Assembly (NCBI RefSeq): GCF_007050985.1 | Contig: NZ_VHSF01000003.1 | Location: 593,500 to 657,499 of the forward strand | DNA from: Christiangramia sabulilitoris | GTDB lineage: Bacteria; Bacteroidota; Bacteroidia; Flavobacteriales; Flavobacteriaceae | Direction of reading: 5' to 3' | Length of the DNA: 64,000 nucleotides | Part shown: piece after piece, positions 37,285 through 48,702 of the stretch | How the letters are laid out: the number at the start of each line of letters is the position of its first letter | Position numbering within the stretch: the first letter of the stretch is position 1 | Program-made: the position numbers and the translations under genes | Notes under the pieces: model-generated | What the model saw: the letters and a program-made list of their open reading frames with translations, nothing else | Database searches by the model: none | Told to the model about the DNA's origin: nothing

Positions 37285-38880
37285 TTATTTGCTATTCTGT
37301 TTGATGAGATCCAATAGGTCCACGTTATCTCCCATCACTGCTTCCTGAGATTCCACCCGGTTCTTATGACTGCCATTTTCCAGTTTAAGCACTCCTCTTG
37401 GACATACGGCTGAACAGATCCCGCAACCTACACAGCTGGATCTTACAATATTTTCACCTTTCTGGGCATAAGCTCTTACATCGATTCCCATCTCGCAATA
37501 GGTTGAACAATTGCCGCAGGAGATACATTGCCCGCCATTGGTGGTGATCCTGAATTTTGAAAACAATCGTTGCTGCATTCCTAAAATTGCCGCCATGGGA
37601 CATCCAAACCTGCACCATACCCTGTTTCCAAAAATCGGGTAAAATCCTGTACCTATTACCCCGCTAAAAATGGCACCTATAAGGAAGCCATAACTTTGCC
37701 GCAGCGTTTCCGCATTGAACAGAAAGAGATTACTGCCACTGAAATAATGAAACCCTATAAGAGAAATTATGATCACCAAATAACCTATGGCTCCATACCT
37801 GGCATCCTTTTCAAGCTCTTCTCTTTTAAAATACCAGATGCCGGCAAACAACAGGGTTAGAAATGTTCCAACCCCAATGAGAAACACATCACGGTTTAAC
37901 CAGTACCTATCTGCATCATACCCCAGATACGAATAAATCACCGCGGTGGTCATAAGGACCACGAAGACCAGTACACTATGAATCACCCAGCGCTCTACCT
38001 TCCAGGCAAAAAGACTTTTATCTGAAAGATGACGGTAGGGATCGCCGGCAGTTTCTGCCAGACCACCGCAACCACACACCCAGCTGCAATACCATCTTTT
38101 ACCATATTTATAAGTAAGGATGGGGGTAATGATAAAAATAGAAGCTATCCCGAATAATAATAGAATAAGACCAATTGTGCCTGAATCTAAAAAATCATTG
38201 ACACGGTATTGTTCAAAATTATAATAATTAAGGGGCCAGATATTTTTTAGATCATAATAAGGCAGGGAAAATCCCTTCCCGTTTAATCTCGACATGAATT
38301 CAGGAATAAGAAATGCAAAAGCCGTCTGGAAGAACATTACAGATACTGTTCTTATTTTTTCGTACCGATTATGCCTGTATTTCCACATGAATTTTACACC
38401 AAAGGCCAGGATCGCTATGGTATAGAGCGTTCCATATACAAACCACTGGCTGGCTGGATTACCGCTCAGCAATTTGCTTAACGGGTCAAAAAGCGAGATA
38501 AGGCCGGTATTATCTCCTTCTGCCTGTAATCCTAGATACTCCGGATAAAAATAAAGGATAATGTAAAAACCGGTGAGCGCAATCCCCGTCAACCAGGCCA
38601 GGTATCCCCTGTTGGTCATAGACTTGAACCATAGCCCATCATTTTTAATGCCCGGGTGTTTATCTGCATAGGCAGCCAGGGCAAACCAGACTATACCTCC
38701 GGAAATCGCCGCTAAAGACAGGCTAAGCCAGAGAGTTTTATTGGGAAAATTAAGATTGAAAGCAGCAAGGACCAGTATCATTAACCCAGACATTCCAATA
38801 AGGGTGGCGATTTTCTGCTGAGTATTGATGGATCGCGGTGCGTCACCGGTCATGGACATATTGTGTTCTATCCTGCTCAT
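37285..38880 (-). CDS. Membrane polyferredoxin (NapH/NosR-like)
   Basis: 531 residues with about nine to ten membrane segments and two cytoplasmic CxxxCP-like motifs (WYCSWVCGCGG near 265 and WCRFGCPM near 425), as in NapH/NosR. Two [4Fe-4S] motifs follow: CISCGNCSTYCEMG and CVGCGICSAVCPRG. Such proteins carry electrons through or along the membrane to a periplasmic or membrane reductase. No nap or nos catalytic subunit is in the window. It follows the FAD oxidoreductase by a single base, so they probably form an NAD(P)H to FAD to Fe-S electron path. The final acceptor is unknown. Confidence 0.88.
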   Translation of the reverse strand: MSRIEHNMSMTGDAPRSINTQQKIATLIGMSGLMILVLAAFNLNFPNKTLWLSLSLAAISGGIVWFALAAYADKHPGIKNDGLWFKSMTNRGYLAWLTGIALTGFYIILYFYPEYLGLQAEGDNTGLISLFDPLSKLLSGNPASQWFVYGTLYTIAILAFGVKFMWKYRHNRYEKIRTVSVMFFQTAFAFLIPEFMSRLNGKGFSLPYYDLKNIWPLNYYNFEQYRVNDFLDSGTIGLILLLFGIASIFIITPILTYKYGKRWYCSWVCGCGGLAETAGDPYRHLSDKSLFAWKVERWVIHSVLVFVVLMTTAVIYSYLGYDADRYWLNRDVFLIGVGTFLTLLFAGIWYFKREELEKDARYGAIGYLVIIISLIGFHYFSGSNLFLFNAETLRQSYGFLIGAIFSGVIGTGFYPIFGNRVWCRFGCPMAAILGMQQRLFSKFRITTNGGQCISCGNCSTYCEMGIDVRAYAQKGENIVRSSCVGCGICSAVCPRGVLKLENGSHKNRVESQEAVMGDNVDLLDLIKQNSK

Positions 38881-38881
38881 G

Positions 38882-40168
38882 CTATACTTTCTGTAAATTA
38901 TTTTTAAAATTGCTTAAAATCTCATCTTCATGAGTGTCGTAAAATTCCGGGTCAAAATTAGCCAGGCTCAAATTCATCATCACGTGATCTACAGATCTAT
39001 TTTCATCCAGCCAGCGATCAAAGACTTCCTGTCTCATCCTGATCCCAAAAGTATTGATACCTAAAAATCTTCTACTTTCTGCTTCATATGAAATGCTGAT
39101 TGCCTTAAATTCCTTTTTATGCCTCCAGTGAAAATGTTCCTCACCCTTCTTCGGTTCAGGCCAGACCCAGCCATAAGTTTGATATTCGATGTCGAAGAAT
39201 TTAGCTGAATTAAACCAGTTACCGGGTTCATATGCAGTCCTTTTTCCAACTAAGGTCTGGGCGAGAGTTTCACCCATGATCCTGCCCGTATACCATACGG
39301 CTTCCACCGGCTTTCTTAAACCTATAGCATTTCGTTGCTGGGCACAGTCACCAATGGAATATACATCTGGAATATTGGTTTCCAAATATTCGTTGACCAG
39401 TACTCCCCTGTCTGTTTCCAGTTTAGAATTTTTTAGAAAATCTATATTAGGTCGTACGCCGGCACAAAGGCCTACTAGCTGACATTCGATCTCTTCCCCA
39501 TCTTTTGTCGTGACCGCCCTTACCCTGCCGTTTTCATCTGCAAGGATCTTATCTAATTCTGTATTATGTCGCAAATCTACAACATGAGAGCTTATGTGTT
39601 CAGAGATCATTTCAGCATCTGGGAATGGAAGAACATTACTCCAGAATGCTTTTTCTCTAACCAGGAAAGTAACCTCAATCTTCCGGGTTCTCAGCATTTC
39701 GGCAAGCTCTATGCCAATAAGTCCTCCTCCTACAATTACCGCTTTTTTCGTGTGCGCTGTGTTTTCTTCCAACTCGATAAGATCCTGTTTGGACACCAGG
39801 CCCTGGACTCCTTTAAGATCTTCTCCTTCCCAACCAAATTTGTTATATACCGAACCGGTGGCAATTACAAGCTTATCATAGCTCATAGGCTCACCCACAG
39901 AAAAACGTAATTTCTTTTTTTCAAAATCTAACCTGGTCACCCAGGCCTTTACCAATTCTATCCTGTTCTTTTTCCAGAACCAGTCTTCGTATGGCTGTAG
40001 ATGATTCCACTTCATATGCCCCATATAGACATACATTAATGCAGTACGCGAAAAGAAATAATCTGATTCACCTGAAATTACTGTGATCTTATGGTCTGCA
40101 TTTTTCCGGATGTGCCGGGCCGCCGTGATACCTGAAATTCCGTTACCGATTATTACTATATGCTCCAT
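38882..40168 (-). CDS. FAD-dependent pyridine-nucleotide oxidoreductase
   Basis: A 428-residue reductase starting at MEHIVIIG; the 12 upstream residues of the longer frame are not credible. Two Rossmann motifs are visible: FAD site IVIIGNGISGITAARHI (4-20) and NAD(P)H site VIVGGGLIGIELAEML. The terminal FAD motif is VYSIGDCAQQ. It resembles rubredoxin/ferredoxin reductases and the FAD half of nitrite reductase, but lacks disulphide CxxxxC motifs. Its last base lies one base before the polyferredoxin gene, strongly suggesting a functional pair. Divergent from the glycosidase-like gene at 40270. Confidence 0.9.
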   Translation of the reverse strand: MEHIVIIGNGISGITAARHIRKNADHKITVISGESDYFFSRTALMYVYMGHMKWNHLQPYEDWFWKKNRIELVKAWVTRLDFEKKKLRFSVGEPMSYDKLVIATGSVYNKFGWEGEDLKGVQGLVSKQDLIELEENTAHTKKAVIVGGGLIGIELAEMLRTRKIEVTFLVREKAFWSNVLPFPDAEMISEHISSHVVDLRHNTELDKILADENGRVRAVTTKDGEEIECQLVGLCAGVRPNIDFLKNSKLETDRGVLVNEYLETNIPDVYSIGDCAQQRNAIGLRKPVEAVWYTGRIMGETLAQTLVGKRTAYEPGNWFNSAKFFDIEYQTYGWVWPEPKKGEEHFHWRHKKEFKAISISYEAESRRFLGINTFGIRMRQEVFDRWLDENRSVDHVMMNLSLANFDPEFYDTHEDEILSNFKNNLQKV

Positions 40169-40269
40169 TAATTTTTTATAATTTGGCAGAAAGCCTGATG
40201 GCACTACGAGTAAAGTACGCTGAAAATTGGCAAATTCCCAAGTAGAACAGGGTTTTTATAACTTTAAGG

Positions 40270-41301
40270 ATGGCACGTATTTCCAAAATATCAATTCACG
40301 TTCTGATCCTAGCACTAATAGCTGTTTTATCAGGATCGTGCCAGGCAGAAATACCTTTAAAGAAAATTAATGGCATAAGTCTCGTGGCCTCCAGGGATAG
40401 TCTTAGAAGCGAACATATTTTGCCAATGGTCGAGATAAATGCCAATGCTGTAGCTTTGGTCCCTTATGCTTTCGTTCCGAATAAAGACGAACCCAGGTTA
40501 ATTTTCAATACAGAGAGACAATGGTTTGGAGAAAGGGTCGCCGGAATTGAGCATGCCATTAAGTTGCTAAAAAAACAAGATCTAAGGCTGATGATAAAAC
40601 CTCATATCTGGCTGAGAAACGGTGAATTTACCGGTGATTTTAAAGCTTCGACAGAAAGTGATTGGGTAAAATTTGAGTCTACATACCGTGATTACATTTT
40701 GCTCTATGCCCGGATTGCAGAAGAAAATAATATTGAAACCTTTTGCATTGGAACAGAACTTTTCAATTTTGCAGACCAGAGACCTGACTACTGGAAACAA
40801 TTAATTGCCGACGTTAGAAGTATTTATAAAGGAAAACTGGTATATGCAGAAAACTGGGACAAGGTAGATAAGATTGAATTCTGGGATCAACTGGATTATA
40901 TAGGAGTAGATGCCTATTTTCCCCTGAGCGAGGAAAGTTCTCCTACAGAAGAAGAGATCAGAAATGGCTGGCAGAATCATAAAAATATGCTGGAAGAACT
41001 GAGCCAGGAATTTAACAAACCCGTAATGTTCACAGAATATGGCTACCGGAGTATGGATTATGCATTGAAGGAGCCGTGGAATTCCAGCCGGGATATTTCA
41101 GGCATTAACCAGGAACTTCAGGCCAGGGCCCTGAAAATTTTATATGAAGAATTCTGGGGTGAAAACTGGTTCGCCGGCGGTTATATCTGGAAGTGGCATC
41201 AGTCTGAAAATGCCGGAGGACCTGATAATGATCGTTTTACACCACAGAATAAACCTGCCGAGGCTGTTATTCAGAAAAATCATGAGAATTTCAGGAACTA
41301 A
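40270..41301 (+). CDS. GH113-like glycosidase lipoprotein
   Basis: 343 residues with a lipoprotein signal ending SGSC (Cys24). The TIM-barrel resembles GH113 beta-mannanases: proposed acid/base Glu163 in FCIGTEL and nucleophile Glu256 in VMFTEYGYR, with WDQLDYIGVDAYFPL between. The late GGYIWKWH segment is also typical. It would cleave a beta-linked glycan at the cell envelope, possibly one containing mannose. It is the only plus-strand gene in this stretch and overlaps the convergent TIGR04283 glycosyltransferase by 11 bases. Whether it acts on products of the neighbouring glycosyltransferases is a guess. Confidence 0.85.
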   Translation: MARISKISIHVLILALIAVLSGSCQAEIPLKKINGISLVASRDSLRSEHILPMVEINANAVALVPYAFVPNKDEPRLIFNTERQWFGERVAGIEHAIKLLKKQDLRLMIKPHIWLRNGEFTGDFKASTESDWVKFESTYRDYILLYARIAEENNIETFCIGTELFNFADQRPDYWKQLIADVRSIYKGKLVYAENWDKVDKIEFWDQLDYIGVDAYFPLSEESSPTEEEIRNGWQNHKNMLEELSQEFNKPVMFTEYGYRSMDYALKEPWNSSRDISGINQELQARALKILYEEFWGENWFAGGYIWKWHQSENAGGPDNDRFTPQNKPAEAVIQKNHENFRN

Positions 41302-41977
41302 TACGCTTATAATAATGCGAATAAAGTTCTTCTGCAGATGCTCCAAACCTTCTTTTCCAATAGATCTCGATAAACAGACGCTGAGTATTCCAGACACCCA
41401 GTTTTTCGTAAAGCCTGGCCGAGGTAGTAATCCAGCTTTTTATCACCGTAAACTGCCCCAAATCGTATAGTCTTTTAATGAATTCATTGTCTTCATAAAC
41501 AAGGTAGGATTCATCGAATCCCGATAATTGTTCAAAAAGCCGCCGTGATACAAAAAGAGATTGATCACCGCCGCGACAGGAGATATGATTAAATTTAGTG
41601 AAAAACCCCATTAAACTCAGCCACCAGTGATCTTTATCAAATTTCATCTGAAAGCATCCGGCTTTATTGCCCTTTTTAAATTCATTTACGATCAAAGAAT
41701 CAAAACGCTCCGGTGGAAAACTATCGGCATGTAAAAAATAAAGAATTTCAGATTTGGCAATTTTGGCCCCGGTATTCATCTGCACAGCCCTTCCTTTAGG
41801 GGAATTCAAATAGATAACCCCGGGCTGGTATTTGCAAACCCTGGCCGTTGCATCTGTACTTCCACCGTCTACAACAATAATTTCGGAAACAAAACCAGAA
41901 GAGACCCTCGCGAGATGTTGCAGTAAAACCGGAAGTTTTTCTTCCTCATTAAAAACGGGAATAATAATGCTTATCAT
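41291..41977 (-). CDS. TIGR04283-type glycosyltransferase of arsenosugar cluster
   Basis: A 228-residue GT2 enzyme of the family annotated arsenosugar-biosynthesis glycosyltransferase (TIGR04283). Visible parts are SIIIPVFNEEEKLPVLL, DGGSTDATARV, the conserved SPKGRAVQMNTGA, YFLHADSFPP with the metal Asp, and CRGGDQSLFVSRRLFEQLSGFDE reduced to the family pattern GGDQ plus GFDE. No membrane helix; cytoplasmic. Last gene of the arsenosugar operon, six bases after the DUF547 gene. Likely attaches an aglycone or sugar unit to the arsenic-containing ribose, but the acceptor is not known. Confidence 0.9.
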   Translation of the reverse strand: MISIIIPVFNEEEKLPVLLQHLARVSSGFVSEIIVVDGGSTDATARVCKYQPGVIYLNSPKGRAVQMNTGAKIAKSEILYFLHADSFPPERFDSLIVNEFKKGNKAGCFQMKFDKDHWWLSLMGFFTKFNHISCRGGDQSLFVSRRLFEQLSGFDESYLVYEDNEFIKRLYDLGQFTVIKSWITTSARLYEKLGVWNTQRLFIEIYWKRRFGASAEELYSHYYKRISS

Positions 41978-41983
41978 CCCTTT

Positions 41984-42787
41984 CTACTTAGCTTCGTTCA
42001 GGTTCCAGTTATATTCGAGATATGAAATCTCCGCATCCTTAGCTATTTTAACTTTTGAATACCGGTTCACATAGTCTATAAGACTTACACCGCCTTCAGT
42101 AAAATCGCCTTTATACCAGTCAAATATCGAAGATAGCCTGGCTGAATTCCCGGAAATTTCATTCTTATCTGAATTCACGAATTCTCTGGTAACTATCTCC
42201 AGCTGCTGTTCGATCTTAGGTGCAGTAAAAGCTTCATTAATAAGTTTTGGACATGATATCGACGCACAATTGATCGCAAAATGTATTCTGGGTTCATTCA
42301 TCTTGCGCAGCAAACTATTTTCTATACCGCCAAGGGAAATTTTAGTATCACCTATATTGATAAATTCGCTGGTCCAGGCACCATTAATATCTTTAATACT
42401 CTTCACCGGATAATTTCGCAAAATAAGATCTACGGTATAGGCATTATAGAGATTGATATAATAGGCAAGCAGTTCCTGCGCAGACCAGGAATCATCTGGT
42501 TTTTGCTTAGAAAGCATTTCCAGGTATTTATTAAGCTTTTCCCTGTCATTTTTAAAACCTTTATAATCTACCATCCCATCTTCCCGAACATGCTTTTGAA
42601 GTAATTTATTCCACAGACTGTGATCTACTTTAACAGCTTCATTTTTAGCTATATTTTTGGCTTCATCATTTACGCTTGGAGTAGGCAGGCCCTTACTGTT
42701 AAATCCTGCGCTGGATATGAGATTACAGGAGGCGAACATGGCCGCCCCGGAGATGAGGATCACAAAACTTAGAATTAACTTCTTCAT
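41984..42787 (-). CDS. DUF547 lipoprotein
   Basis: 267 residues: lipoprotein signal ending FASC (Cys21) and a DUF547 domain from about 65 to 240, with SLWNKLLQKHVREDGMVDY, LAYYINLYNAYTVDLILRN, GGIENSLLR and IHFAINCASISCPKL in order, then LSSIFDWYKGDF. DUF547 has a cysteine-protease/transglutaminase-like fold with N/H/C residues; in the ISCASCP-like segment (NCASISCP) the Cys pair is present. Function unknown, although a member near vitamin or methyl metabolism is common. It is inside the arsenosugar operon (18 bases after arsM), which makes an export or folding role possible. Confidence 0.88.
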   Translation of the reverse strand: MKKLILSFVILISGAAMFASCNLISSAGFNSKGLPTPSVNDEAKNIAKNEAVKVDHSLWNKLLQKHVREDGMVDYKGFKNDREKLNKYLEMLSKQKPDDSWSAQELLAYYINLYNAYTVDLILRNYPVKSIKDINGAWTSEFINIGDTKISLGGIENSLLRKMNEPRIHFAINCASISCPKLINEAFTAPKIEQQLEIVTREFVNSDKNEISGNSARLSSIFDWYKGDFTEGGVSLIDYVNRYSKVKIAKDAEISYLEYNWNLNEAK

Positions 42788-42805
42788 GGTATTCTTTTTT
42801 AAAAA

Positions 42806-43774
42806 TTAGCAGCAGCCTCCACCATCGTAATGCCAGGTAGATTCACTAATAAATATATCGTCTCTGCCGAGGGATGCCAGTGCTCCGGCAGTTTTATCAC
42901 AGACCGCCAGCGGCTGGTTTTTAACCAGGAAATGCCCCTTACCATCATCAAAATGATCCTGATCGCCATAATATATGGCAGCTTTACCGGTAAATATACA
43001 TGGACCATCTTCTGGCATTGGATCTTTTATGGCGGCTACCTCTATCGATTCTATATAAATGAGTTCATCTGTAGGATAGTTTTTAGGATCCAGAATTCGA
43101 TAAGGTTTTCTTGCCCTTATCTCGATCGTACCAAAACCTACATCTGTTAACGCTTTGACATAATCCTGTATGGTTAAACTTCCGCTAAGACATAAAGCCC
43201 GGAGGCGTTCATCATTCCTCAATTCATCGTTCATTTCCTGCTCACAGGTAGGATCACTCATCACAAGCCGGCCATGTGGTTTTAAAACGCGGTACATTTC
43301 CTTTAAAGCTTTGGTAAGCTCTTCAGTTTTAAAAATATTAAAAAGACAATTCTGAGCTGCCACATCTATTGAATTATCCTCCACCGGCAGTTCTGTAGCA
43401 TCACCCTTTTTGAGGTCCACGAATTCAGACTTAAACCATGAATTCAACTTTTCAGCTTCCTTAAAATTCTTCCGGGAAGCCTCCAGCATTTCATCTACAA
43501 TGTCTACCCCGACAACCCCCGATTTCTGCCGGGAGAAATAGGCAAATTGCAGCAGTTCCATCCCACCGCCAACGCCCACATAAAGGGTTCTGGGATTATT
43601 GGTAAGGTCACGGGCATGAACCGTAGATCCACAACCGTAATTCATTTCCTGCATGATCTTAGGAATCTTTAGCCCGGGTAATTCCCAAATTGGATTTGTA
43701 GTACAACATAATCCCACATCTGGAGTAAGGGCCGCTTCGCGATAAACATCTTTGGTAGTTTCTAAATAGCTCAT
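42806..43774 (-). CDS. arsM: Arsenite S-adenosylmethionine methyltransferase ArsM (arsenosugar type)
   Basis: Methylates arsenite with S-adenosylmethionine, the first committed arsenosugar step. 322 residues: SAM motif LYVGVGGGMELLQFA (64-78), acidic VGVDIVDEML, and the three arsenic-binding cysteines of canonical ArsM can be placed at Cys48 (YGCGST), Cys143 (QNCLFN) and Cys195 (ALCLSGS). Extra cysteines occur at 23-24 and in the C-terminal GGGCC tail, the latter absent from many ArsM proteins. It overlaps the purine nucleoside phosphorylase stop by a shared TAATG, so translation is coupled. The surrounding genes support arsenosugar rather than volatile-arsenic production. Confidence 0.92.
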   Translation of the reverse strand: MSYLETTKDVYREAALTPDVGLCCTTNPIWELPGLKIPKIMQEMNYGCGSTVHARDLTNNPRTLYVGVGGGMELLQFAYFSRQKSGVVGVDIVDEMLEASRKNFKEAEKLNSWFKSEFVDLKKGDATELPVEDNSIDVAAQNCLFNIFKTEELTKALKEMYRVLKPHGRLVMSDPTCEQEMNDELRNDERLRALCLSGSLTIQDYVKALTDVGFGTIEIRARKPYRILDPKNYPTDELIYIESIEVAAIKDPMPEDGPCIFTGKAAIYYGDQDHFDDGKGHFLVKNQPLAVCDKTAGALASLGRDDIFISESTWHYDGGGCC

Positions 43775-44586
43775 TATATCTTATCTAATAATTCTTTAAA
43801 CAATTTTACCATATTCGGCTCTGCCTTGGCGGCATTGGCCAGGATATCCTGAATATCGACCTTCTCCAGGTTATCCGGATCTCCCTGATCTGTGATCACT
43901 GAAATTGCTGAAACCGGAATTCCCAAATGATTTGCCACGATAACTTCTGGCACAGTGCTCATACCTACTGCATCCCCTCCAATCATTTTTAAATAACGAT
44001 ATTCAGCCCTGGTTTCGAGTTCGGGGCCGGGAACAGAAATATACACTCCTTTGTGTAGTGTGATATTATTTCTTCTTGCAGCTTCTTCAAAAATTTCGTT
44101 CATTTCCCTGTTGTAGGGCTCGCTCATATCTACAAACCTTTCACCCAGTTGATCCACGCCGTGAAAAGCCAAAGGTGAACCTCCAAGCAGGTTAATATGA
44201 TCATCTATAAGCATAAGTTCTGCTTTTTTAAAATCGAGATTCAATGCCCCGGAAGCATTGGACACCAATAATCGTTGCATTCCTAACCGCTTCATTACCC
44301 TAACCGGAAAAGTAACATCGAAAAGACTGTACCCTTCATACAGGTGAAACCTTCCCTGCATAATGACTACTTTTTTACCCTGCAGGCTTCCAAAGATCAG
44401 TTTACCTTTATGAAATTCAACCGTAGCCGTAGGAAAGTATGGAATATGATTATAACTGGCTTCAGCCTCGATTTCCACATCTTCAAGTAGTTTTCCAAGC
44501 CCGGTCCCAAGAATGATCCCAACCTCAGGAGTTCCAAAGCCTTTCGATTTTAAATAGTCTACAGATTCATTAATTCTGTCTGTCAT
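43774..44586 (-). CDS. Purine nucleoside phosphorylase within arsenosugar operon
   Basis: Phosphorolyses purine nucleosides to base and (deoxy)ribose-1-phosphate. The 270-residue trimeric-type PNP shows the phosphate/substrate residues in GIILGTGLGKLLE, YEGYSLFDVTFPVRVM, NASGALNLDF, and the late VISVITDQGDPDN block. It is joined to TIGR04282 and arsM by TAATG overlaps on both sides, an unusually intimate arrangement. A natural reading is that it cleaves adenine from the 5'-deoxy-5'-dimethylarsinoyl-adenosine expected from ArsM plus ArsS, giving an arsenosugar phosphate. That is inference; ordinary purine salvage is the alternative. Confidence 0.92.
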   Translation of the reverse strand: MTDRINESVDYLKSKGFGTPEVGIILGTGLGKLLEDVEIEAEASYNHIPYFPTATVEFHKGKLIFGSLQGKKVVIMQGRFHLYEGYSLFDVTFPVRVMKRLGMQRLLVSNASGALNLDFKKAELMLIDDHINLLGGSPLAFHGVDQLGERFVDMSEPYNREMNEIFEEAARRNNITLHKGVYISVPGPELETRAEYRYLKMIGGDAVGMSTVPEVIVANHLGIPVSAISVITDQGDPDNLEKVDIQDILANAAKAEPNMVKLFKELLDKI

Positions 44587-45191
44587 TATTTTATAAAATT
44601 TTGGAAGGCCGGATGATCTTTTATATCATCCAGCATATCTATATCATTTTTTTCTGGCAGGACCTTGATCTTCGCATCCTGCATATCTTTAAGCGAGTCT
44701 TCAAAAACACTGGAAGTACTCCAATTTTTTCCATGGAAAAGCTTTTTATTCATGGCTTTCATTCCAAGTAAATAGTAGCCTCCGTCCTTCGCCGGACCTA
44801 TTACATAATCATGATCCTGCAATTCTGAAAAAGCTGCAGAAATATCAGCCGAAGATATATCATAAAGATCACTCCCTATAATGATCACTTCCTGATAACC
44901 CTGTGCAAAAGCATCTGTAAAGGCCGCTTGCATTTTATCTCCCAGATCCCCATCGATTTGAAGTTTTTTTTCAAAACCTCCAGTTTCCCAAATATCATTC
45001 TCAGCAAGAAAGCTGGAATAAAATACTTGTTTTTCCAGTTTCAGGGGAGCAGTGATTTCATGAGAGTGCTTCAACAGAAATTTATAAATTTCCAGCGCCT
45101 TATTATTACCAAGATCTCTGGCCAGCCTCGTTTTCACCTTTCCCGCTTCAGGATTTTTGGTGAAGATCATCAATAATTTCTCGTTATCCAC
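44586..45191 (-). CDS. TIGR04282-type glycosyltransferase of arsenosugar cluster
   Basis: A 201-residue small nucleotide-sugar/CofC-like transferase (DUF2064) of the TIGR04282 family. Signature pieces are LMIFTKNPEAGKVKTRLA at the start, GDLGDKMQAAFTDAF, IIIGSDLYDIS, and AKDGGYYLLGMK near 135. The fold resembles guanylyl- or uridylyl-transferases, so it may activate a sugar phosphate (for example a ribose-1-phosphate) rather than transfer it. Directly abuts the rhodanese gene (no gap) and is coupled to the PNP gene by TAATG. Cytoplasmic. The family's link to arsenosugars is from genome context. Confidence 0.9.
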   Translation of the reverse strand: MDNEKLLMIFTKNPEAGKVKTRLARDLGNNKALEIYKFLLKHSHEITAPLKLEKQVFYSSFLAENDIWETGGFEKKLQIDGDLGDKMQAAFTDAFAQGYQEVIIIGSDLYDISSADISAAFSELQDHDYVIGPAKDGGYYLLGMKAMNKKLFHGKNWSTSSVFEDSLKDMQDAKIKVLPEKNDIDMLDDIKDHPAFQNFIK

Positions 45192-45695
45192 CTAATAAAT
45201 TTTTTCAGCATTCTCCAGCCATTTAGCCCAATGCCTGGAATAAGCGTGAACTTTATTGGTTGGTTTGTTTTTTATATCCATAACAGGAAAACCGCTTTGC
45301 TTCCATCCAAATATGCCCCCATAAAGATTCCTGATATTTTTATAACCCGCTTTAGCAAGTTTTATGGCAATATCTTCAGATCTGATCCCTATAGAACAAT
45401 ACACCACGATTTTTTTATTTTTCTGAATGTCATTCATTCCGGAGAGTTCAAAATCATTATAGCCAATATATATCGCGCCGGGAATATGACTCACTATGAA
45501 TTCTTCGTTCTCCCTTGCATCCAATATGATCACATCTCCATTTAACTGGTGCATTCTTAATTCTTCCGCAGAAATATAGGGAATGCTGCCAGAATTATAT
45601 TTCTTAAGAATTTCCCCCAGGGAATTCTGAGATTGCACGGGTGAAAAAATCTGGACCATAAAGATGAGTATAAGAAAGTTCCTTGTCATACTCAT
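45192..45695 (-). CDS. Exported rhodanese-like protein in arsenosugar operon
   Basis: A rhodanese domain with a signal peptide (MSMTRNFLILIFMVQIFSPVQS). The start at 45695 is preferred because the longer frame would overlap arsS by 22 bases. Typical features: HIPGAIYIGYND, and the persulphide cysteine Cys100 in VVYCSIGIRSE, with a GGIFGWKQSGFPV close. The six-residue active loop CSIGIR is normal for rhodaneses. It would sit in the periplasm, unlike most sulphur-transfer rhodaneses. It lies two bases after arsS. Its connection with arsenic (for example thioarsenical formation or arsenate reduction) is hypothetical. Confidence 0.87.
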   Translation of the reverse strand: MSMTRNFLILIFMVQIFSPVQSQNSLGEILKKYNSGSIPYISAEELRMHQLNGDVIILDARENEEFIVSHIPGAIYIGYNDFELSGMNDIQKNKKIVVYCSIGIRSEDIAIKLAKAGYKNIRNLYGGIFGWKQSGFPVMDIKNKPTNKVHAYSRHWAKWLENAEKIY

Positions 45696-45697
45696 GA

Positions 45698-46753
45698 TCA
45701 GGCTACGCTTCCCTGGCAACTACTACCGGCCCCGGCAGTACAACCATAGCAATGTTGTGAAATTATAATATTCCTGTCGTTTAATAAATCTTCGTTATAC
45801 GCGCTAATATGTTGCACTTTACTATCAACTTTTAACTCCAGCATTTGGTTGAAATCACAGTCATACAACCAGCCATCCCAGCTAATGGAGATGGTATTTG
45901 TACACATTACATTCTCCACAGCCGCAGGATTATAGGCATCTACCAGGGCGTACATATAATCCTCGTAATTCTCTGAAGCAATAAGATATTCCAGGAAACG
46001 ACTTATAGGCAAGTTGGTTATCGCAAATAAATTATCGAAATCTATATTGAAATCTTCCTTTAAAGCAACTTTAAAATCATGCTCCATGGCCTGTTGATCT
46101 GTAGGCAGGAATGCCCCGGAAGGATTATAAACCAGGTCAAGTTTTAAACCGGTACCTTCCTGTGCATAACCAACCGAATTGAGCATTTGTAAGGCCTTTA
46201 TAGATTTATCAAAAACCCCGCTTCCACGTTGCTTGTCTGTCTTCTCTCTTTTATAAAAGGGAAGCGAAGATACTACGTGTACATTGTGTTTCTTAAAAAA
46301 TTCCGGAAGGTCATGATATTTTTTATTAGCCAGAATGATGGTTAGATTAGACCTTACGATAAAATCCTTAATGCCTGCCTTTGATGCTTCTTCCACGAAC
46401 CATCTGAAATTCGGATTCATTTCCGGAGCTCCACCCGTAAGATCCAGGGTGTGGGCACCTGTATTTTTAATTACTTCAAGACATTGTTCCATGGTTTCCC
46501 GGGTCATGATCTCTTTCCTGTCTGGACCGGCATCTACGTGGCAATGAGAACAAACCTGATTGCACATATAACCAAGATTAAGCTGGAGTATCTCTAATTT
46601 TTTTGGTTTCAGGGGGAAATTACCGGTTTGGCTAATCTTGTCTTTGAATGTGGGTAAACCACCATTTTGAAAAATACCGTTACTCAGGAATTTTAATTGA
46701 TTTTTAGGACTGGAAAGATCATCCTTTCGTGCTTTCAGGGACTTAATGGTCAT
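45698..46753 (-). CDS. arsS: Radical SAM enzyme ArsS (arsenosugar biosynthesis)
   Basis: Expected to add a 5'-deoxyadenosyl group from SAM to dimethylarsinous acid, giving the arsenic nucleoside precursor of arsenosugars. The radical SAM cluster motif is C64xxxC68xxC71 in GYMCNQVCSHCHVDAGP. The DUF3641-like C-terminus carries further cysteines (MCTNTISISWDGWLYDCDF near 283-297, and C335, C338 and C346 in CYGCTAGAGSSC), likely auxiliary Fe-S or arsenic-binding sites. Some homologues are selenoproteins; this one uses Cys throughout. Second gene of the operon, 49 bases after the AhpD-like gene. 351 residues, normal length. Confidence 0.93.
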   Translation of the reverse strand: MTIKSLKARKDDLSSPKNQLKFLSNGIFQNGGLPTFKDKISQTGNFPLKPKKLEILQLNLGYMCNQVCSHCHVDAGPDRKEIMTRETMEQCLEVIKNTGAHTLDLTGGAPEMNPNFRWFVEEASKAGIKDFIVRSNLTIILANKKYHDLPEFFKKHNVHVVSSLPFYKREKTDKQRGSGVFDKSIKALQMLNSVGYAQEGTGLKLDLVYNPSGAFLPTDQQAMEHDFKVALKEDFNIDFDNLFAITNLPISRFLEYLIASENYEDYMYALVDAYNPAAVENVMCTNTISISWDGWLYDCDFNQMLELKVDSKVQHISAYNEDLLNDRNIIISQHCYGCTAGAGSSCQGSVA

Positions 46754-46802
46754 AAAGAAATTTTGATGCGTTAAATAATTAGTACACTTATTACGAAAAT
46801 AC

Positions 46803-47138
46803 TTACATACTTAACTTTTTGTACTTGTTCATCATTTGAACGCCATGCACCAAAGTAGCTCCACTTTCAATTGCTGCGCCGGCATGCACCGCTTCCATCA
46901 TTTCCTCTTTGGTAATACCCCGCTGTAATCCGTCTTTAGTATATGCATCTATGCAATATGGACATTTAACAACGTGCGACACAGCCAGGGCAATCAGGGA
47001 TTTTTCGCGCGCAGAAAGTGCTCCTTCTTCGAAAACCTTACCGTAGTAATCGAAGAATTTGTTTCCTAATTCCTCACTCCATTCAGTAATTTCTCCAAAT
47101 TTTCTAAGGTCTGCAGGATCATAATAATTTTTAGACAT
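46803..47138 (-). CDS. AhpD/carboxymuconolactone-decarboxylase-like protein of arsenosugar cluster
   Basis: A 111-residue alkylhydroperoxidase-like protein matching the group annotated arsenosugar-biosynthesis-associated peroxidase-like protein. The redox motif is VKCPYCIDAY, with Cys59 and Cys62, followed by the AhpD-type helix EMMEAVHAGAAIESGATL. In some relatives the first Cys is selenocysteine; here it is Cys. It probably acts as a thiol-dependent peroxidase or arsenic redox protein. First gene of the minus-strand arsenosugar operon; the next gene is arsS. Confidence 0.9.
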   Translation of the reverse strand: MSKNYYDPADLRKFGEITEWSEELGNKFFDYYGKVFEEGALSAREKSLIALAVSHVVKCPYCIDAYTKDGLQRGITKEEMMEAVHAGAAIESGATLVHGVQMMNKYKKLSM

Positions 47139-47380: not shown

Positions 47381-47655
47381 AATATTGGATTTTCCTGAAT
47401 TTAAGGCCCTGTGGTTTTCCAAAAAAAGATTTAACAAATAATTGATATCTAAACACAGTTGCTTATTTAGCCGTGAAATCAATCTAAAGAAAGGGCATTA
47501 TAACGTTTTTCGCATTACAATTATCTTAAATAATGATATCTCGCACAAGAATTCTTAAAATTTTCACACAAATGATAATTTTACAGCCTTTGTGTTTAGA
47601 AAAAATTAGTAAAAAACGCTTAACTTTAAAAAGCGCGAATTCTACGAGATTATCA

Positions 47656-48702
47656 ATGAGAATTATTGTTAAAACCTTACCAGTAAACGAAATCCTCGAG
47701 GATATTGCAGAAACCCTTGGAACTGAATTAATAAACCGAAACGGAGAACTAAGTGTTAATATTCCGGAAAGTTCCGGAGAAGGTTATATAAGAGGAGTCA
47801 GTTTCGATTCCGGGATGGGCATCCTTACTTATAACTGTAAATTCTACGAGGATGTAGAAATTCATTTTGCGTTAAATACAGTACATCCGCTAAAGTTTAT
47901 TTTTTGTTCTGAAGGAAGCGTAGGACATCGTTTTCAGAAGAGTGATGAGCTTCACACCATTGACACTTACCAGAATATTGTAGTAAGCAGTAATGGCTAC
48001 CAGGGACACATTTTGTACTTTAAAAAGAATATTGCCACCCATGTATCCAGCCTGGAGATCATCAGGTCGATATTCGCGCATAGATCTAATTACGATTTCA
48101 AGGACCTTGACCCTACTTTAAAGGAGCTTTTTCAGGATGCCGTTTCTAAGAAGCAATTTTTTTACCAGGGGAATTACAGTATTAAAGCTGCAGATCTTAT
48201 GGACGATATCAGCACTAAGGATTATTCCGGTTTTTTGCGCAACCTGTTCCTTGAGGGTAAGGCCTTTGAAATGCTGGTCATCCAGATCGCACAATATGAA
48301 GACGACGAGAATGGTGAAAACCTGCCTAAGATCCTCAGAAAATCTGATATCGAAAAAGTAGATTATGTCGCGAAAAGAATTCAGGGGGATCTTAGCACAA
48401 ATCTAAATGTGGAATCCCTGGCGAAAGAAGCGGGCACTAATGTGAACAAGCTGCAGGAAGGTTTTAAATATGTATATAACCTTACCGTAAATAAATATAT
48501 GCAGAATGTAAAGCTTGAGGCGGCTAAGGAGATGCTAAAACTTTCAGATAAGAATATTTCAGAGATTGTCACCTCTATAGGACTTAATAACCGAAGTTAT
48601 TTTTCAAAGATCTTTAAAGAAAAATATGGAGTTAGCCCCAAGTATTTCCTCAAATCCAAGAAACAACTTAAAACTGAAGAGATCAAAGAAGAGCAGGATT
48701 AA
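47656..48702 (+). CDS. AraC-family transcriptional regulator
   Basis: 348 residues from the ATG at 47656 (MRIIVKTLPV); the longer frame adds 41 residues of low-complexity translation that do not match a domain. The C-terminal two-helix-turn-helix AraC domain (about 240-340) includes NVESLAKEAGTNVNKLQEGFK and the second helix pair ISEIVTSIGLNNRSYFSKIFKEKYGVSP. The N-terminal ~220 residues are a sensory region without a recognised family. It is divergent from the tail-anchored gene and arsenosugar cluster, and so a candidate regulator of them, on position only. Confidence 0.88.
   Translation: MRIIVKTLPVNEILEDIAETLGTELINRNGELSVNIPESSGEGYIRGVSFDSGMGILTYNCKFYEDVEIHFALNTVHPLKFIFCSEGSVGHRFQKSDELHTIDTYQNIVVSSNGYQGHILYFKKNIATHVSSLEIIRSIFAHRSNYDFKDLDPTLKELFQDAVSKKQFFYQGNYSIKAADLMDDISTKDYSGFLRNLFLEGKAFEMLVIQIAQYEDDENGENLPKILRKSDIEKVDYVAKRIQGDLSTNLNVESLAKEAGTNVNKLQEGFKYVYNLTVNKYMQNVKLEAAKEMLKLSDKNISEIVTSIGLNNRSYFSKIFKEKYGVSPKYFLKSKKQLKTEEIKEEQD

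Follow-up and report, generated by a model that had tools for sequence, protein, structure and literature searches.

The 64,000-nucleotide stretch of DNA analysed here, which we call the window, comes from Christiangramia sabulilitoris (GCF_007050985.1, contig NZ_VHSF01000003.1, positions 593,500-657,499 of the forward strand; all positions below are relative to the window). It encodes an operon of arsenosugar type in which a purine nucleoside phosphorylase (PNP) and the adjoining TIGR04282 protein are the predicted missing middle of arsenosugar synthesis, between the radical S-adenosylmethionine (SAM) enzyme ArsS and the glycosyltransferase TIGR04283. We hold this prediction tentatively, at a little less than an even chance. 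The methylation of arsenite by ArsM and the adenosylation of the dimethylarsenical by ArsS form a pathway worked out in cyanobacteria, and to our knowledge these are the only steps of arsenosugar synthesis characterised so far. In the proposed route, ArsM would methylate arsenite and ArsS would add a 5'-deoxyadenosyl group to the dimethylarsenical. PNP would then phosphorolyse the adenosyl-arsenical to adenine and arsenoribose-1-phosphate, TIGR04282 would load the latter onto a nucleotide, and TIGR04283 would transfer the activated arsenoribose to glycerol or a lipid. We infer all the steps that follow ArsS. The pairing is chemically coherent, since a producer of sugar-1-phosphate adjoins a nucleotidyltransferase-like protein. 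An earlier proposal on an algal arsenosugar lipid already has a nucleosidase removing adenine after adenosylation (PMC10456119), and a version with phosphorolysis, activation and named genes was not evident in the literature searched. Among the major forms of arsenic in seaweed and seafood are arsenosugars and their lipids, and the operon gives a testable candidate for every step after ArsS.

Eight adjoining minus-strand genes occupy positions 41291-47138, and their coordinates and their NCBIfam and Pfam matches confirm the packing and the families given in a preliminary description of the window. From the highest coordinates downwards, they encode an AhpD/CMD-domain protein, i.e., an arsenosugar biosynthesis-associated peroxidase-like protein (46803..47138; TIGR04169, 199 bits, cut-off 120); ArsS, with radical SAM and DUF3641 domains, in its Cys form (45698..46753; TIGR04167, 444 bits, cut-off 300); a rhodanese-domain protein with a hydrophobic N-terminus (45192..45719; NF045521 “rhoda_near_glyco”, 198 bits, cut-off 145); the TIGR04282 protein, named a glycosyltransferase and here predicted to be a CofC/FbiD-like nucleotidyltransferase (44586..45191; 206 bits, above the cut-off); the trimeric-family PNP (43774..44586; NF006054, 335 bits, cut-off 218; TIGR01697, 288 bits, cut-off 197); ArsM, an arsenite methyltransferase of the arsenosugar type (42806..43774; NF038099, 572 bits, cut-off 400); a DUF547 lipoprotein-like protein (41984..42787; PF04784, 91 bits); and the TIGR04283 glycosyltransferase of GT2 fold, a predicted sugar transferase (41291..41977; 235 bits, cut-off 182; PF00535). 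The rhodanese and TIGR04282 genes abut. One-base TAATG stop-start overlaps join TIGR04282 to the phosphorylase and the phosphorylase to ArsM, as had been described for both junctions. The gaps are 49 bp between AhpD and ArsS, 18 bp between ArsM and DUF547, and 6 bp between DUF547 and TIGR04283. The rhodanese open reading frame, with its start listed as TTG at 45719, overlaps the 3' end of ArsS and has an ATG inside. Five of the eight genes (AhpD, ArsS, TIGR04282, ArsM, TIGR04283) fall under NCBIfam models named after arsenosugars, and the rhodanese model is named by neighbourhood; the phosphorylase and the DUF547 protein carry neither kind of label in NCBIfam. The cluster is of a kind already known to annotators, and its novelty lies in the link between PNP and TIGR04282, in the chemistry of TIGR04282 and in the separability of the unit from the arsenic genes.

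The matches to ArsM, ArsS, TIGR04169, TIGR04282 and TIGR04283, all above curated cut-offs, support the assignment of the cluster to the arsenosugar type. Cys48, Cys143 and Cys195 of ArsM are all present, as previously described. The protein has 10 cysteines in all, of which nine, including a C-terminal Cys-Cys, are invariant in 64 of 64 aligned relatives. The invariant cysteines of the arsenosugar-type ArsM well exceed the three usually cited. ArsS has the expected radical SAM motif, in the form CNQVCSHC (CxxxCxxC), and is predicted from its family to attach a 5'-deoxyadenosyl group to dimethylated arsenic. A radical SAM enzyme adenosylates arsenic in oxo-arsenosugar synthesis (PMC12159101).

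We searched 59 related genomes, 14 control genomes and a sample of 148 Bacteroidota genomes; the arsenosugar ArsM (NF038099) was searched in the relatives and the controls, with a threshold of E ≤ 1e-80 for the latter. All of the 36 relatives that have TIGR04282 encode PNP at most 0.8 kb from it, and 25 of the 33 ArsS-positive relatives encode PNP within 3 kb of ArsS. The PNP-TIGR04282 pair lies apart from ArsS in G033, G034 and G047, 4 kb off in G025 and about 9 kb off in G005, G008, G022 and G035. In the last four, and in G141, the intervening DNA contains a second DUF2064 gene and genes for SusC, SusD, an SSF permease and a metallophosphoesterase. In the phylum sample, PNP stood by TIGR04282 in the eight other ArsS-positive Flavobacteriaceae (own genome aside). 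Hence, PNP tracks TIGR04282 more closely than it tracks ArsS, also where ArsS lies elsewhere.

TIGR04282 is in turn associated with ArsS. Among the relatives we found ArsS in 33, ArsM in 32 (G030 has ArsS and no ArsM match), TIGR04282 in 36 and the trimeric PNP in 49 genomes. TIGR04282 was present in all 33 ArsS-positive relatives and in three of the 26 ArsS-negative ones. The Bacteroidota sample contained ArsS in 58 genomes, TIGR04282 in 90 and TIGR04283 in at least 74; in many of these genomes scoring covered only 18 candidates, and TIGR04283 may therefore be undercounted. TIGR04282 was found in 57 of the 58 ArsS-positive genomes vs 33 of the 90 ArsS-negative ones (Fisher p = 7e-16, shared ancestry ignored); in 42 of these 58 the two genes lie no more than 3 kb apart. 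TIGR04283 occurred in at least 47 of the ArsS-positive and at least 27 of the ArsS-negative genomes, and the 74 genomes with TIGR04283 all had TIGR04282. Compact clusters of AhpD-ArsS-TIGR04282-TIGR04283 or ArsS-TIGR04282-TIGR04283 were also found in eight of 20 regions centred on ArsS that came from other orders and classes (L250-L252, L254, L259, L260, L263, L267).

The conservation of the whole operon is more limited. The eight genes stand without insertion in nine of the 13 same-genus regions, own region included (one of the nine, G001, with a rhodanese match of only 28 bits). In three of the 13, five genes are inserted between ArsS and the rhodanese; the remaining one, G017, lacks AhpD, ArsS and ArsM. 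Further afield, we analysed named ArsS loci, i.e., the best 80 of 587 candidates, mostly from Flavobacteriaceae, and detected AhpD in 79, TIGR04282 in 70, PNP in 58, ArsM in 44, the rhodanese in 43, DUF547 in 35 and TIGR04283 in 27; genes were detected by phmmer with the window's own proteins, so that divergent homologues may escape, and some loci are short. All eight were detected in 20 of the 80. The preliminary description would have been refuted by a phosphorylase and a rhodanese linked elsewhere in most relatives. This is not the case for the phosphorylase, which stays in 58 of the loci; the rhodanese is in 43 of the 80.

The operon PNP falls just short of the inosine/guanosine-specific model TIGR01700 (292.4 vs 293.35 bits), and its closest named proteins are from Christiangramia/Gramella. 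We numbered its residues by alignment to human PNP. It has Asp at position 243 and Ile where human PNP has His257, and it keeps Glu201, Tyr88 and Phe159 of PNP. In the human enzyme, Asn243 binds the purine, and His257 has been considered as a partner of the 5'-OH, although simulations show no persistent hydrogen bond (PMC4308819); the combined replacements Glu201Gln and Asn243Asp extend the substrates to those of adenosine type (PMC2799393). Position 257 is I, V or L in 81 of the 81 readable cluster-linked PNPs (from a set of 83), and His in 11 of the 12 unlinked PNPs of the same set. Among Flavobacteriales with a readable PNP (genomes without a PNP match and the truncated G051 excluded), a hydrophobic residue 257 was found in 41 of 41 ArsS-positive vs four of 19 ArsS-negative genomes, kinship ignored. 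Genus g33 contains both types: the ArsS-positive G141 has the hydrophobic type in the cluster and a His-type copy on another contig, and, among the matches listed, the ArsS-negative G114, G125 and G198 have only the His type, and G078 and G082 no PNP match. In a tree of PNPs (sequences longer than 220 aa, without duplicates), an old split accounts for most of the division into these types. Residue 257 is in keeping with a 5'-deoxy-5'-substituted adenosine as substrate, for instance the predicted product of ArsS, without proving such a role.

Several observations, set out in this and the following two paragraphs, weigh against the proposed middle. Three genomes without ArsM or ArsS match genome-wide (G017, G024, G048) keep PNP-TIGR04282 with Ile257. 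G017, of the same genus, lacks just AhpD, ArsS and ArsM in the operon and retains the rhodanese, TIGR04282, PNP, DUF547 and TIGR04283; G024 shows the same pattern, and G048 keeps DUF547-PNP-TIGR04282. The remaining genes of G017 do not evolve clearly faster than those of ArsS carriers. Their mean pairwise nonsynonymous divergence (dN) is below that of the relatives for TIGR04283, DUF547, TIGR04282 and the rhodanese, and is 0.099 vs 0.093 for PNP; the ratio to synonymous divergence (dN/dS) is slightly above the relatives for TIGR04282 and the rhodanese. A recent loss of the arsenic genes in G017 is still compatible with these values, since even the closest relative stands far off (dS above 1 wherever it could be computed). 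Parts of the unit also persist elsewhere: the ArsS-negative G198, where ArsM was not searched genome-wide, keeps rhodanese-TIGR04282-DUF547-TIGR04283 without PNP, G083 keeps the TIGR04282-TIGR04283 pair, and at least 27 of the 148 Bacteroidota have both families without an ArsS match. The disregard of shared ancestry applies to our association (Fisher) tests as a whole.

These genomes would fit a general route formed by the rhodanese, TIGR04282, PNP, DUF547 and TIGR04283, which either salvages 5'-deoxynucleosides, such as the 5'-deoxyadenosine released by radical SAM enzymes or 5'-methylthioadenosine (MTA), or makes an arsenic-free glycoconjugate; ArsM, ArsS and AhpD would then be an arsenic unit of their own, which merely sits in the same operon or supplies the route now and then. 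We regard this as unlikely, though a serious contender. In its favour, besides the unit kept whole or in part without the arsenic genes and the lack of clear relaxation in G017, the MTA/S-adenosylhomocysteine nucleosidase (TIGR01704) is found in only eight of the 59 relatives, G025 being the sole ArsS carrier (of 33) among them, so that another enzyme may clear 5'-deoxynucleosides. Yet TIGR04282 is far commoner with ArsS than without it, and at least seven ArsS-negative relatives (G039, G042, G044, G045, G052, G055, G057) lack, among the genes read, both a TIGR01704 match and a PNP with hydrophobic residue 257. The unit is therefore not generally needed for the salvage of 5'-deoxynucleosides. 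The known dihydroxyacetone phosphate (DHAP) shunt has a kinase, an isomerase and an aldolase (PMC10986504), and the eight genes match no family of these three enzymes. The persistence of the TIGR04282-TIGR04283 pair without ArsS makes it most likely that the pair also handles a second, arsenic-free sugar phosphate, and the two families alone are unfit as markers of arsenosugars. The earlier idea that the operon encodes the whole pathway up to a glycosylated arsenic sugar is only partly borne out: the association of ArsS with TIGR04282 and the presence of PNP in most named loci speak for it, the separability of the unit against it. More speculatively, and in our opinion improbably, arsenosugar synthesis could be the arsenic branch of a wider bacterial route, in which 5'-deoxy-5'-substituted adenosines, the products of radical SAM enzymes, would be turned into nucleotide-activated 5-substituted riboses by the phosphorylase, the CofC-fold TIGR04282 and its obligate partner TIGR04283. 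ArsM and ArsS would then be a plug-in, without which the route would yield an unknown glycoside of the 5-deoxyribose type.

The phosphorylase itself provides most of the other points on the negative side. It is the genome's sole match to the trimeric PNP family and may serve general salvage; the other two PF01048 genes are one uridine-phosphorylase-like gene and one DeoD-type gene covering model positions 2-83 of 236. It misses the cut-off of the MTAP model TIGR01694 (108 vs 275 bits), and is MTAP-like only in Asp243 and in the hydrophobic residue 257 (Val in human MTAP, by alignment), its sequence being otherwise PNP-like, with the three conserved residues given above. Across Bacteroidota, a hydrophobic residue 257 is common with or without ArsS: it was seen in 12 of one set of 29 PNPs and in all 21 of those taken from other orders and classes (L288-L307). 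Asp243 is in the majority everywhere, i.e., in all readable PNPs of the cluster-linked and unlinked set and in 23 of 29 and 28 of 30 of further sets. Since both residues are widespread irrespective of ArsS, neither is arsenic-specific. No PNP showed up in the 20 ArsS-centred regions taken from other orders and classes, but a few named loci outside Flavobacteriales do have one (L177, L182, L183). None of the 14 control genomes, Synechococcus elongatus included, matched NF038099 at E ≤ 1e-80. The phosphorylase might then be an ordinary purine-salvage enzyme, as the names of its family models imply, that lies in the operon by chance, with an unlinked enzyme removing adenine from the product of ArsS. 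We consider this doubtful: chance does not readily account for the proximity to TIGR04282 in every relative that has it, for the genomes with both types (G141, G048), where the hydrophobic type stands beside TIGR04282 and the His type elsewhere, or for the contrast at position 257 between ArsS-positive and ArsS-negative Flavobacteriales. The DeoD-type gene of C. sabulilitoris (L004 1477-1845) looks truncated in this assembly, and the open reading frame ahead of it presumably encodes DeoC.

The proposed middle also depends on the chemistry of TIGR04282, which the preliminary description took for a glycosyltransferase. This was not borne out. After the family's own structure (3cgx), the solved folds closest to the model of the TIGR04282 protein are the CofC/FbiD guanylyltransferases (7p97, 2i5e, 6bwg/6bwh), followed by the IspD/TarI cytidylyltransferases. 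The model has the overall fold of a CofC/FbiD guanylyltransferase, and the protein has weak CofC matches in both Pfam and NCBIfam. It is not CofC itself, given that it scores 29 bits with TIGR03552 (CofC, 2-phospho-L-lactate guanylyltransferase), for a cut-off of 105; this also sets it apart from the guanylyltransferases represented by 2i5e, 7p97 and Rv2983. From its modelled fold, we predict that TIGR04282 is a CofC/FbiD-like nucleotidyltransferase, and the widely used name “glycosyltransferase” probably describes the wrong chemistry. That TIGR04282 is itself a glycosyltransferase, and the arsenosugar the target of two such enzymes in succession, as the NCBIfam name would have it and as mannosylglycerate synthase and ArnC/GtrB further down the fold lists might suggest through a GT-A-like fold common to both, is very improbable when nucleotidyltransferases lead these lists and the weak profile matches are to CofC.

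The operon resembles known systems in part. As in the cyanobacterial ArsM-ArsS pathway, ArsM and ArsS match their families, well above the curated cut-offs, and S. elongatus was the only control genome to match ArsS, TIGR04282 and TIGR04283. In contrast, ArsM and ArsS are here packed with the phosphorylase, the rhodanese, AhpD and DUF547, and S. elongatus, besides lacking the NF038099 match, has no match to the trimeric PNP family. The DHAP shunt likewise starts by removing adenine from a SAM-derived 5'-deoxynucleoside (PMC10986504, PMC6079011), but proceeds through MtnN and MtnK or through MtnP, then MtnA and an aldolase (PMC10986504), whereas the phosphorylase of the operon stands beside a nucleotidyltransferase-like protein and a glycosyltransferase. 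In the arsinothricin cluster arsQML, an arsenic methyltransferase and a radical SAM enzyme also lead to a natural product with a C-As bond (PMC8552651); the radical SAM chemistry is different (PMC12159101), and what is made is an amino acid instead of a sugar.

For two other proteins of the operon we have less to propose. A thiol/redox or sulfur-transfer role of the rhodanese is a guess. The DUF547 protein was modelled by AlphaFold2 with a mean predicted local distance difference test (pLDDT) score of 88.5 and a confident core, at about residues 51-267, above 90. Its His169, Cys174 and Cys179 are invariant, and its model matched no PDB fold at E ≤ 0.001.

The neighbourhood of the operon shows some recurrent genes. 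An AraC-type regulator (47533..48702, plus strand; PF12833) is divergent from AhpD and stands next to the cluster in all 13 regions of the genus. A GH113-family protein (40270..41301, plus strand; PF22612, 154 bits) is convergent, with an 11-base 3' overlap with the TIGR04283 gene, and is found in 16 of the 80 named ArsS loci. Beyond it, on the minus strand, lie a flavin NAD(P)H oxidoreductase (Pyr_redox_2; 38882..40204; 15 of 80 loci) and a membrane 4Fe-4S NapH-like protein (37285..38880; 11 of 80 loci). These last two (37285-40204) recur near ArsS, also outside the order (L256, L266), and are a possible electron supply for ArsS or for arsenic reduction. The five-gene block mentioned above (second DUF2064 protein, SusC, SusD, SSF-type permease, metallophosphoesterase) lies in some clusters between ArsS and the rhodanese or TIGR04282 (L071 5274-13074; L072, L074, L087, L123, L136, L150, L276) and in others on the other side of ArsS (L120, L130, L175), which suggests outer-membrane uptake tied to the cluster. 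Finally, a protein of the fatty-acid-hydroxylase family, weakly OlsE-like (85 bits, cut-off 475), was found in 22 of 123 loci, e.g., L158 13952-14833, and is a possible hint at a lipid product.

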